Below, in pieces: positions 51,464 through 55,826 of a stretch of 64,000 nucleotides of DNA; positions within the stretch are counted from its first letter, which is position 1; every line of letters begins with the position of its first letter. The notes beneath the pieces were generated by a model. That model ran no database searches, had not been told where the DNA came from, and saw only the letters and a program-made list of their open reading frames with translations. The translations under genes were made by a program, and so were the position numbers. Where the stretch lies: contig JABTUC010000001.1 in the NCBI GenBank assembly GCA_015075545.1, positions 124,001 to 188,000 of the forward strand, in the 5' to 3' direction. Origin of the DNA: Ideonella sp. (GTDB taxonomy: Bacteria > Pseudomonadota > Gammaproteobacteria > Burkholderiales > Burkholderiaceae_C).

Positions 51464-51520
51464 CAAGAGCGGGACCGTCTATTCGGCGGTCACGCTCTTG
51501 GCGAGATGGCGTGGCTTGTG
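51464..51520 (-). repeat. GlmS 3'-tail repeat, copy 1 (with hairpin)
   Basis: On the minus strand, 51479-51520 still reads HKPRHLAKSVTAE followed by TAG, against [16 protein letters not shown] at the true glmS end. A stem pairs CAAGAGCG with CGCTCTTG (plus GACCG with CGGTC inside) across the stop codon. It is in the same orientation as glmS, 4.3 kb away. Confidence 0.85.
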
Positions 51521-51655
51521 GCTCCCGCATGGCGCTGCGCGCCTTCACATCCGTCGAGCACCACGTCTTCGGCCCTGACGCACGCCCCGGCGATGAAGCG
51601 CTCGACTGCATTGGCGCGGGCTTCGGTCATGTTCAACGGCTCCTCGGTCTTCGCA

Positions 51656-51890
51656 TCACCAACGCACGCCGACGAGCAGCATCGTCTCGCCGAGATTCCT
51701 GCCGCCGCCGACGATGTGGCCGTTGGAAATGTGCCGCAGCATCACGATGAAGTGATCGCGCTGTCAGCCGACGGTGGTCGAAAACTCGATGCGACTCGAC
51801 AGCGCGTCGGTGCGGGTGCTCGTCGCGACCAGTTGCTCGCTGGCGAACCAACGCGAGTTCGGCATCGTGATCCGCACGCCGCCACCGGCG
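51656..51890 (-). pseudogene. Remnant of an outer-membrane barrel, possibly PagL/acyloxyacyl hydrolase-like
   Basis: Two consecutive minus-strand pieces in different frames read like one protein end. The first has RWFASEQLVATSTRTDALSS and then EFSTTVG and a stop. The second has DHFIVMLRHISNG, then NLGETMLLVGVRW and a stop at 51656. The H-x-S-N motif and the final Trp resemble PagL-type lipid A deacylases. There is no start or complete domain. The family call is tentative; the remnant status is firmer. Confidence 0.35.
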
Positions 51891-52162
51891 ACGGTCACAT
51901 GGTGGTGCAGGTGCTCACAACCTCATGCGCATGCGCTCGATGAACGTCGCCTTCGCGGCGTGATCGCAGCTGCGGCTGCAGGGCTGCAACCGCCTCACAA
52001 ACGCCAGATGGCGCCCATGCACGCCAAGGTGAACTCACGGCGTTTCATGACGCATCGACGGCGGAAGGTGCATCGACTTTGGGCGGCGCAGGCCGCACGC
52101 GTCGCTGCTTGGTGTGACACGCGCTGCAGCAGCATGCAGGTCGACCATTGGCGCTGCTTCAT

Positions 52163-53953
52163 TCAGGGCGGCAGACCGGCCTTCAACAGACCGGCAAAGT
52201 AGCGCTCGTTGCCGGCCTGCAACGCGGGGCCGTTGCCCACGACGGTCTTGCGGAAGAGGGAGACCGTCGCCTGCGGCCTCAGGGCCTTCAAGCGCGCCAT
52301 CGCCTGCGCGGCCGCGTCAGTGCGGCCATGCAGAGCATCGACCGCCGCGATCAATGCCCATGCGGTGGCATTGTTCGGATTGCTGAGCGCGGCCGCCTGG
52401 AACTGCTCGTAGGCTGCGTCGTCCTGCCCCTTGTGGAAAAGCGCCGCGCCGGCAACCGCCCGGCCGAACGAAACCTGCGGACTCTCGAGGGGGCTGAGCC
52501 GGCGTCCGCGCTCGACGGCGGCTGCGACCTCGTCGAACCGTCCTAGCGCCAACAAGGTCTGTGCTAGGCGCGCATGGGACCAGGCATCGCTGGGGTTCAG
52601 CGCCAGCGCCCGCTCGTACGAGGCCAGCGCACCCAGCGGATCTTCACGGACGATCCGAAGGTGGCCCTGCGCGTAATGAGCAACGGAGTAGTCAGGGTCG
52701 ATCGCGAGCGCGCGCTGGATGGCTTCGGCGGCGAGCTCGGCCTGCTGGCCGGGATCCGTGGTTTGGCGGGTCTGGATATCCGACAGGTGACTGAGGGCGA
52801 GCCCCGTCCAGGCCCGGGCCGAGGCGGGGTCCGCGGAGATGGCCTCCTGGTACGCCGCGCGTGCCTTCATCGCGTTACCGGGGGCCGTAGACGTGCGCAA
52901 CAACTGGTCGCCGCGCGCCAGCGAGGCCATCACCGGCGATCGCGCCGTGCTGGCGGTGGCCTTGTACGCCGCCGAAGTGAGCTGCAGGTCCAGGGCGCGC
53001 GCGACGCGCAACGGGATGTCGCTTCGCCTTGCGGTCGCCTCTGCATCGGGCTGGTGCCACCGTTCGCTCCAGAGCACCGCCCCGGTGTCGGCCGACACGA
53101 ATTGCAGATCCACTTTCACCGCCTCTTCTTCGCGGCTGACGGTGCCGGTGACCACGTAGGCCACGTCCAGCAGCTTGCCGACGCGACGCAGGTCCTGTCC
53201 CTGCGCGGCCGCGGTGGCGGCGGAAGCGCGGGCGATGACCGTGGTGCCCGGCAGGCGCGCGATGTCGCCGATCAGCTCGTCGGTCATCGCCTCGGCGAAA
53301 TCCTGCGTCGTCTGGCTGCCTCGCGGCACCAGCGGCAGCACGGCCAACGACCTTTCCCTGCGGAAGGCCCGGTCCGCGTCGACGGCCGACTGGGGCCACA
53401 GGGCAACAAGTGTCAGGACCAGCGCGGCCAGGCCCGCCGCGCCCAGCGCCACGGGTCGGTACGACCGCCGCGCCACAATGGCCGCTCGCGACGTTGTAGC
53501 CGCTTCCGGTGCCTGCGCTGCGGGCACTGACGGGACTTCAGGGGCTTGCGGAGCTGCCGGCAGCGCCCCCGCATCCTTGGGCTCGAGCACGCCGTCGAAG
53601 CGATAGCCATGACGCGGCATGGTGGTCACGAACTGCGCACCTTCGGGGCCAAGGGCCGCCCGCAGGTCGGCCACGCACTGCACCAGCGAGTCCTCGGTCA
53701 CCACGACGCTCGGCCACAGGAAAGCCATCAGTTCCTGCTTACCCAGGGCGCGGCCGGGGTGTGCCACCAGGTAGGTGAGCAGCGCGTAGACCTTGGGCCG
53801 CAGAGCCAGGGGCTGGCCCTGGTGCGTGACCTCGAAGCGCACCGAATCGAGCCGGTACGGGCCGAAGGCCACCACCGGCGGCAGCGCCGGCATGGCCGGG
53901 AGGTCGTTCAGACCCACTGAGGCGCCCCCTGCCGTTGATCGGCGAAGTTTCAT
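52163..53953 (-). CDS. CadC-like membrane transcriptional regulator with TPR output/sensor region
   Basis: The product has about 596 residues. Residues 30-122 form an OmpR-type winged helix (FEVTHQGQPLALRPKVYALLTYLV, then FVTTMPRHGYRFDG). A Pro/Ala-rich linker leads to a membrane segment near residues 165-187. Then comes a TolB/FlgO-like domain (SLAVLPLVPRGSQTTQDFAEAMTDELIGDIARLPG), followed by TPR repeats to the end (SYERALALNPSDAWSHARLAQTLLALGRF). Such one-component regulators sense the periplasm. The start is ATG at 53953. The gene is divergent from a TPR lipoprotein gene (113 bp between starts) whose C-terminus resembles its own, and the pair is flanked by GlmS-tail repeats. Confidence 0.88.
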   Translation of the reverse strand: MKLRRSTAGGASVGLNDLPAMPALPPVVAFGPYRLDSVRFEVTHQGQPLALRPKVYALLTYLVAHPGRALGKQELMAFLWPSVVVTEDSLVQCVADLRAALGPEGAQFVTTMPRHGYRFDGVLEPKDAGALPAAPQAPEVPSVPAAQAPEAATTSRAAIVARRSYRPVALGAAGLAALVLTLVALWPQSAVDADRAFRRERSLAVLPLVPRGSQTTQDFAEAMTDELIGDIARLPGTTVIARASAATAAAQGQDLRRVGKLLDVAYVVTGTVSREEEAVKVDLQFVSADTGAVLWSERWHQPDAEATARRSDIPLRVARALDLQLTSAAYKATASTARSPVMASLARGDQLLRTSTAPGNAMKARAAYQEAISADPASARAWTGLALSHLSDIQTRQTTDPGQQAELAAEAIQRALAIDPDYSVAHYAQGHLRIVREDPLGALASYERALALNPSDAWSHARLAQTLLALGRFDEVAAAVERGRRLSPLESPQVSFGRAVAGAALFHKGQDDAAYEQFQAAALSNPNNATAWALIAAVDALHGRTDAAAQAMARLKALRPQATVSLFRKTVVGNGPALQAGNERYFAGLLKAGLPP

Positions 53954-54066
53954 CAAAGCTTCGTCCGGTTTTCGGGACAGGTCAAGGACGACCCGCCCAG
54001 AGTGGCCGGCAGCGCTGGTTGTGTGGTGCGAGCTCCTTCGTCCGCCGGCGCACCGGAAGGGCTTCC
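53954..54066. promoter_or_regulatory. Divergent promoter region of the regulator/lipoprotein pair
   Basis: The 113 bp between the two divergent starts must contain both promoters. No clear -10/-35 elements or palindrome could be picked out, but a winged-helix regulator encoded next door makes autoregulation from here likely. Confidence 0.35.
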
Positions 54067-55510: not shown

Positions 55511-55566
55511 GCGGGCGGCCCTGCGGGCCTTGACTTCGCTGGCGCGAAGTCAGCCTGCGCCGCAAG
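55501..55566. repeat. Second interspersed repeat with hairpin (copy B)
   Basis: It shares about 50 bases of pattern with the copy at 59.5 kb (TGTGGCTGCGG at the start, AGCCTGCGCCGCAA at the end). The stem TGACTTCGC (55531-55539) pairs with GCGAAGTCA (55544-55552). The stem sequence differs from other copies, but pairing is kept. Confidence 0.75.
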
Positions 55567-55625
55567 CCCAGCAACTTGCGGCCGCACAGCGGCCGGTCGC
55601 TGCGCGACGCGAAGCGCGCGCCCGT

Positions 55626-55667
55626 CTACTCGACGGTCACGCTCTTGGCGAGATTGCGTGGCTTGTG
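55626..55667 (-). repeat. GlmS 3'-tail repeat, copy 3
   Basis: The minus strand reads [13 protein letters not shown] then TAG, identical over 12 residues to the real GlmS C-terminus but with different codons (for example AAG CCA CGC). The left hairpin arm is degenerate here. It lies 120-160 bp from the true glmS end, in the same orientation. Confidence 0.88.
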
Positions 55668-55716
55668 GTGCGCGCCCGCCGCTCCCGCGGCTTCACATCG
55701 CTGCGCGATGTGAGCG
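55661..55716. repeat. Second interspersed repeat with hairpin (copy C)
   Basis: This copy contains the stem TCACATCGC (55693-55701) with GCGATGTGA (55705-55713) and a 3-base loop. The flanks (GGCTTGTGG before, GAGCGCG after) match other copies only in part. Confidence 0.7.
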
Positions 55717-55726
55717 CGCCCCAAAA

Positions 55727-55826
55727 ACCAAGGAATCGGCAGCGCCTTCAGCGCTGCGCGCTTGCGCGCGCCGCGAAGAGCGTGCCCGTCATTCGACGGT
55801 CACACTCTTCGCGAGATTCCTTGGTT
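55727..55826 (-). terminator. Hairpin spanning the glmS stop codon, with an inverted GlmS-tail copy
   Basis: The inner stem pairs 55773-55790 with 55795-55812, with the glmS stop in the loop region. The outer arms AACCAAGGAATC (55727-55738) and GATTCCTTGGTT (55815-55826) extend it after a 34-base insertion in the left arm. The left arm is thus an interrupted inverted copy of the glmS coding tail. It may end the glmS transcript. Confidence 0.6.

Follow-up and report, generated by a model that had tools for sequence, protein, structure and literature searches.

Why should the end of one gene be written out four times? The question is raised by a 64,000-nt stretch of DNA from Ideonella sp. (contig JABTUC010000001.1, positions 124,001 to 188,000; hereafter the window), in which the coding end of glmS, here called a tail, is followed by three more copies of itself. 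The original prediction, that these are extra direct copies in the glmS orientation, was borne out at the exact positions, and no other convincing match was found in the same genome: a tail search gave E <1e-8 for 4 of the 17 matches listed, which are the four tails, and the remaining 13 began at E 0.0177. Treated as a 67-nt family, the other three share 61, 76 and 90% of their positions with the copy taken as reference. All four tails share the orientation of glmS, and the three displaced copies are direct. The answer that we favour, to which we give a probability of roughly 0.5, is that insertions of a small non-autonomous mobile unit lie stacked in the array, and that gene-end cassettes of this kind spread into the same gene elsewhere. 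The features concerned, in window coordinates, are:

55789..57729, minus strand: glmS (646 aa), an open reading frame with orthologues in 6/6 genomes of the genus.
55789..55827, minus strand: tail1, the working glmS end (last 13 codons), interpreted as the end that unit 1 carries.
55725..55788, minus strand: inverted arm and inner hairpins of unit 1; the arm is 13 bp, with GATTCCTTGGTTT pairing with AAACCAAGGAATC of tail1.
55664..55724, plus strand: X1, a copy of a dispersed 62-nt hairpin repeat (covariance model R1, 56.3 bits).
55626..55664, minus strand: tail2, a displaced glmS end (39-nt tail), over 39 nt the same as the second tail of the related genome G003.
55504..55565, plus strand: X2, a second copy of the 62-nt repeat (covariance model R1, 81.2 bits).
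55466..55504, minus strand: tail3, a decayed glmS tail, then a tail1-type arm at 55405-55446.
51479..51517, minus strand: tail4, a decayed glmS end, KPRHLAKSVTAE plus stop, read as the native end (partly by eye).

What, then, lies between the tails? These stretches are copies of the dispersed hairpin repeat, which we call X. An alignment of 20 copies describes X as a 62-nt element with two hairpins set within a closing stem, the latter being its weakest part (80% paired). Across the alignment 92.8% of pair cells were paired and 25 cells had changed on both sides, each figure beating 500/500 shuffles as well as slid versions; two other measures were equalled by 10 and 9 of 500 shuffles. Comparison of the intertail stretch with six genomes of the genus gave dozens of matches at unrelated places, and covariance-model matches to X numbered at least 19 in G000, at least 21 in G001 and at least 64 in G004, these counts being lower bounds because at most 150 candidates were scored per genome. 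X was present in 42/120 sampled genomes of the family and in 45 of the 160 sampled from the order, under 27 family labels and with some of these matches weak (the order label, Burkholderiales, rests on the nearest named glmS genes). In 37 locus pairs the units are at least 93% alike and their flanks dissimilar. The original prediction had reasoned that a tail-like repeat found at many unrelated loci would be an ordinary interspersed repeat. The tail itself occurs at glmS only in its own genome, which rules out a simple interspersed tail repeat; what is dispersed at many loci is the hairpin repeat between the tails. Rfam returned seven matches to X, none reaching its family cut-off, and neither a search of phages and plasmids (one 62-nt X, blastn, E 0.001) nor one of viral contigs (one exact 30-mer) gave a match to X, both being weak tests for so variable a repeat. 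At locus L328 (genome G157) X stands, by eye, within a stretch flanked by the inverted repeats GGGCACCTCGAAAAACC and GGTTTTTCGAGGTGCCC, resembling a miniature insertion sequence that carries X. Three tandem 99-bp units stand at L335 (G203) ahead of what by eye resembles an efflux-pump reading frame and, 99 being a multiple of three, may possibly be read through.

How is X joined to the end of a gene? Along the gene the order is body, working end with its stop, inverted arm, X and displaced end. In this gene-end form the left stem-loop contains the last 10-23 codons and the stop of the host gene (or a gene start), followed by the inverted arm, and gene end and arm are linked. The arm fits the working end, as AAACAGGTTGCACGTGC does GCATGTGCAACCTGTTT in argF of G001 and AAACCAAGGAATC does GATTCCTTGGTTT in glmS (fits given without a null). 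A palindrome around X itself, of the form a'-X-A, was tried and rejected: only 5/119 copies rose above the 99% null, so that the partner of the arm is the working copy. Unit 1 together with the glmS end (55664-55836) has a fold of -112.1 kcal/mol (z -9.4). The plain form of the unit, about 75-80 bp long, has a short left stem-loop and lies between genes; the window contains a copy with such a hairpin:

59486..59547, plus strand: the window's third copy of X, ahead of an RlmI-like gene, with a short left hairpin (covariance model R1).

Right junctions could be placed in 119 of 145 distinct copies, where an A follows GCC in 118 and AA occurs within four bases in 111. Seven X-free sites (glmS, alaX, argF, acs, metK, rlmI-like and trkA) all read (G/C)ANAA by eye. 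Only one gene end, and no X, was found for glmS in G002, G004 and G005, for alaX in G002, G003 and G004, for argF in G000, G002 and G005, for acs in G002, G004 and G005, for metK in G004 and for ftsW in G005. In this last case the codons AAC AGG, typical of a unit-bearing end, are present without X, perhaps as a scar. The plain site before the RlmI-like gene reads GGCG/ACAATC in G001 and G002 and holds a unit in G000, G003 and G004; at trkA X is present in G000 and absent from G004, G001 and G002, with the ACAAT motif only in G004. The plain units at these two sites have only a few A-rich bases on each side and no long duplication, and the gene-end units have duplications of 40-65 nt.

Is glmS a special case? 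Direct repeats beside X, scored by local alignment of at most 160 nt on each side, reached a score of at least 40 for 51 of the 147 X copies, versus 100 of 5480 places drawn at random from these loci, which may overlap arrays. Under nulls in which flanks of different loci were paired, 20/87 genus copies and 15/60 family copies exceeded the 99% level, and these nulls are inflated because loci share genes. Besides glmS, at least 13 other genes have X beside duplicated ends. The 3' end is duplicated in argF, ftsW, alaX, acs, metK, an acyl-CoA dehydrogenase gene, cysH, a yggX-like gene and a phage-type baseplate gene, and the start in ruvC, nuoD and an accC-type gene, to which the 5' part of a tRNA-Ser gene in another family is to be added. 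Ten proteins or fragments were compared with NCBIfam: ruvC, cysH and yggX-like pass the curated cut-off, and argF, ftsW, alaX, acs, metK, the dehydrogenase and the baseplate protein, most of them 110-aa fragments, fall below it; the names nuoD and accC were read from sequence. At the tRNA locus (L326 1381-1471, genome G165) a duplicated 5' part of the tRNA-Ser gene (anticodon gga, ARAGORN) is split off by X, and the sequence upstream is duplicated too, leaving one whole tRNA gene. In the cysH loci L263 and L297 the frame stays open from the working end across X as far as the displaced end, so that the protein has a longer tail. The acs loci L158 (G000) and L166 (G001) and their units are identical over the printed stretch, though the genomes otherwise differ; the locus is near a contig end in G001, and the identity reflects a shared or misplaced contig.

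Do the displaced ends look like dead copies? Tail1 and tail2 of the window differ by 6 synonymous and 0 nonsynonymous codon changes. Over 20 curated pairs the codon differences came to 110 synonymous and 8 nonsynonymous (7% nonsynonymous; the alaX pair of G001 entered with its first 13 codons only), and equally many base substitutions placed at random gave a mean of 79% nonsynonymous and a minimum of 67% (2000 runs). With 14 further, messier pairs the totals rose to 155 and 26 (14%). These pairs are, as synonymous/nonsynonymous differences, L261 8/3, L263 3/3, L297 4/2, L294 2/0, L248 0/1, L247 2/5, tail2/tail3 of the window 2/2, L085 tail1/2 6/1, the ruvC starts L289 0/0, L032 6/0 and L288 7/0, and finally L250 2/0, L268 3/0 and L278 0/1. 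Pairs or arrays free of any difference (L020, L246, L264, L269, L290 and L292) added nothing to the counts, which also leave aside the nuoD pair and the second L032 copy, whose frame is unreadable. Since the differences are mostly synonymous, both copies were once working gene ends in most pairs.

If the units travel, to what are they most alike? We compared 129 X copies, one per locus save for the three of the window, of which 41 lie at genes that X has entered in more than one genome, with gene labels taken from the tails and L166 left out as a duplicate of the printed stretch of L158. The nearest X in another genome was at the same gene for 27 of the 41 (shuffled mean 4.8, maximum 15; 5000 shuffles). 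With the copy's own genome included the figure was 24/41, the nearest X being in that same genome for 5/41, and with fewer labels it was 20/37. Near-identical plain units at unrelated places, taken with this gene-wise likeness, indicate that X disperses and that gene-end units form per-gene lineages.

The history of the glmS array can be read in part from its relatives. A second tail behind glmS is also found in G003 and G001, and the tail repeats are therefore not an assembly accident of one genome. In G003, whose glmS protein is 96% identical, unit 1 is followed by one native tail with no 4-kb block, and the sequence beyond this second tail matches that beyond tail4 of the window (both by eye); the window lineage thus additionally has tail2, X2, tail3 and the block. 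Among relatives of the genus, the block is absent from this place in G003, and G002, G004 and G005 have a single tail without X. By eye the arm of X2 fits a tail of the AAGCCCAGxAACTT type, as in G001, and not tail2, a mosaic from which it follows that tails have been exchanged. In Polaromonas, L085 has as its working tail the same 39 nt that form the displaced tail of L084, and the working glmS tails of the two loci differ at 8/13 codons. Over loci L064-L143 the last 13 codons of glmS gave a mean of 0.47 synonymous differences versus 0.28 in the body (86 pairs from beyond the genus-only set, some few of them with the X-bearing L084 or L085; a second comparison took 84 pairs without known X). 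In Limnohabitans (L118 3887-4660) a glmS tail copy lies 737 bp downstream with an open reading frame between and no X by eye, which is another, separate route to a displaced glmS tail, and L127 has a weak tail copy at +1964.

The block of about 4 kb between tail3 and tail4 (window 51518-55404) carries two large genes:

53935..55353, plus strand: a TPR protein and probable lipoprotein (signal seen by eye; Pfam TPR families).
52163..53956, minus strand: a Trans_reg_C (CadC-like) and TPR protein (Pfam PF00486 and TPR).

Ten further open reading frames lie between the tails or overlap the block edge. A Pfam scan of these and the two large genes, covering frames of 70 aa or more, agreed with the original prediction that no integrase or tns gene lies between the copies: the ten gave no Pfam match at 0.01, and the frames in 51304-52199 were likewise without a match.

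How might such an array be built? In the reading that we favour, a unit consists of a left stem-loop and the conserved 62-nt X, placed at an A-rich site that is often (G/C)^ANAA, and X would enter such sites through an enzyme. The gene-end form would first arise where X, entering close to the end of a gene, was accompanied by a local duplication that left the gene whole, and only with such a duplication would an insertion there survive; gene-preserving duplications on the other side of X, at micro-homology, are seen for the tRNA-Ser gene, the accC-type gene and L150. The linked block of gene end, arm and X could then spread to the same gene of other strains with the gene end as homology, whereupon the gene would read into the unit and stop at the unit's copy, its former end pushed behind X. 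Tandem copying, loss and decay would come later. The spread itself would proceed by homologous exchange or by active homing, both of which fit the picture. The units might also play some role as transcript ends. A broader proposal, which we put forward tentatively and hold to be possible rather than probable, is a class of gene-end-swapping elements: each lineage would carry the recoded terminus of one host gene, enter that gene at one codon, supply its new end and displace the old one, and over repeated rounds essential gene ends throughout the order would come to be respelled in synonymous codons, much as by a natural recoded-rescue insertion.

Several observations weigh against the insertion reading. 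No mover enzyme was found among the three families tested. The Y1 transposase (PF01797) was found in 0/4 genus genomes, with controls matching in 5/14; the reverse transcriptase (PF00078) was absent from G000 and G004 and present in G001 and G003 (2/4 genomes); and the integron integrase, above cut-off in 51/120 family genomes, does not track X (21/42 X genomes versus 30/78 others, p 0.25). All three were rejected as movers on these profile results. Some further pairs are poorly conserved, above all metK L247 and cysH L263. In alaX of G000 changes common to both copies are absent from G003, so that the pair looks locally duplicated and not imported, and in alaX of G001 it is the displaced copy, not the working one, that looks unlike the genus. 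Synonymous variability of the glmS 3' region is seen in X-free genomes as well, which weakens arguments from glmS alone. The arm mostly misfits the displaced copy, its matches to working ends carry no null, and the exact ANAA motif occurs in only 62/119 right junctions. Finally, the duplications on the other side of X (L150, accC-type, tRNA-Ser) fit slippage at micro-homology.

Other explanations must be set beside it. X could be inserted by an enzyme whose action invariably copies 40-65 bp of target; the two ends of the gene would drift apart afterwards, and only gene ends would be seen because insertions elsewhere would break genes. Such a scheme accounts for gene starts as well as ends among the sites and for one side staying whole, and exact or near-exact duplications do exist at L150 (46-49 bp), L244 argF, L280 acs and the ruvC start L289 (0 codon differences). 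A freely drifting dead copy would nevertheless look otherwise, with about 40-79% of its differences nonsynonymous; the 7% of the curated pairs and even the 14% reached with the further ones are far from this, though single old pairs such as L247 do fit drift. As the plain units at the rlmI-like and trkA sites also have only a few A-rich flanking bases and no long duplication, simple target duplication with drift is disfavoured, and we consider it unlikely. Active homing, in which a gene-specific unit would recognise its own gene end and insert before it via a dedicated recombinase acting on folded single strands, strikes us as no more probable. It would explain why the same codon positions are used in the same genes across genera (by eye), the A-rich junctions, the gene-wise likeness of units and the stacks in which the newest unit adjoins the gene, yet none of the three recombination-enzyme families tested tracks X, and ordinary homologous exchange would give the same picture.

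Two further explanations fare much worse. That palindrome correction and tandem duplication reshaped selected 3'-end structures, i.e. terminators, where they stood, without any mobility, is suggested by the very strong folding (z -9.4) and by arms that change together with the codons (by eye), but X lies at many loci with unrelated flanks, among them 37 near-identical pairs, and X-free plain sites exist; we judge this very improbable. The original prediction had looked to target-restoring insertion, with Tn7-type elements or genomic islands as agents. Its first half fits: the displaced copies look like former gene ends, the differences are mostly synonymous, and G003 has one unit and one native tail. 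Its agents do not. The 4-kb block between tails might suggest scars of Tn7-like elements or integrase islands, and glmS is the classic Tn7 target; however, none of the 12 open reading frames scanned there showed a tns or integrase domain, the same anatomy recurs at a dozen other genes not known as Tn7 targets, and Tn7 is not known to carry the glmS tail. The domain scans and the same units at many other genes lead us to reject these agents, whose involvement now seems hardly credible.

The insertion reading can be placed among known systems. Target-restoring integrative elements (tRNA islands; Tn7 at glmS) insert beside the gene body, keep or restore the end and displace the old one, and here too the new unit adjoins the gene body with the gene end kept and the old end displaced. 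In contrast to them, the units are roughly 75-165 bp, gene-free, synonymously recoded and found at many protein genes, and unlike Tn7-like elements they are not confined to the region downstream of glmS. Mitochondrial double-hairpin elements are small mobile hairpins without genes, and in Allomyces atp6 the resident gene has been joined to a foreign end with the old end displaced, an endonuclease gene being carried and one gene concerned; those are organelle systems, whereas X units are bacterial, gene-free and at many genes. With REP/RAYT and IS200/IS605-derived elements X shares hairpin ends, a short target and the lack of a gene of its own. The short target without long duplication is seen in plain units, but gene-end units have their longer ones, the Y1 transposase is missing from all four genus genomes examined, even G004 with its at least 64 X matches, and X is a three-way structure linked to gene ends. 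Integron attC sites have outer boxes RYYYAAC ... GTTRRRY, while the ends of X read, by inspection, TTN-CGG ... GCC-A-rich; an attC-like site stands beside an integron integrase in L310. A diversity-generating retroelement does not match either, with no PF00078 in G000 or G004 and codon changes that are mostly synonymous. Compared with a classical miniature inverted-repeat transposable element, X is by inspection without long terminal inverted repeats and has a few A-rich bases on both sides at plain sites. Rickettsia palindromic elements (RPEs) are, like X, short palindromic repeats in coding genes, some read in frame (here cysH). As described in a review (PMC10969869), RPEs are read as inserts inside proteins, unlike X, which lies where genes end and has next to it another copy of that end in a different spelling.

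What does this mean for these bacteria? Small palindromic mobile repeats are already known, but gene-end units beside a recoded copy appear to be undescribed; our literature search found no description of gene-end units of the X type. The reading accounts for repeated gene ends and possibly for the fact that some gene termini here vary unusually at synonymous sites. X would be a low-cost mobile element that ranges over an order and lets its choice of target and its survival be followed in the sequence, and it points to a recombination activity at work. Should the units prove to move actively, each would be a mobile part specific to one gene and able to mend that gene on entering it.

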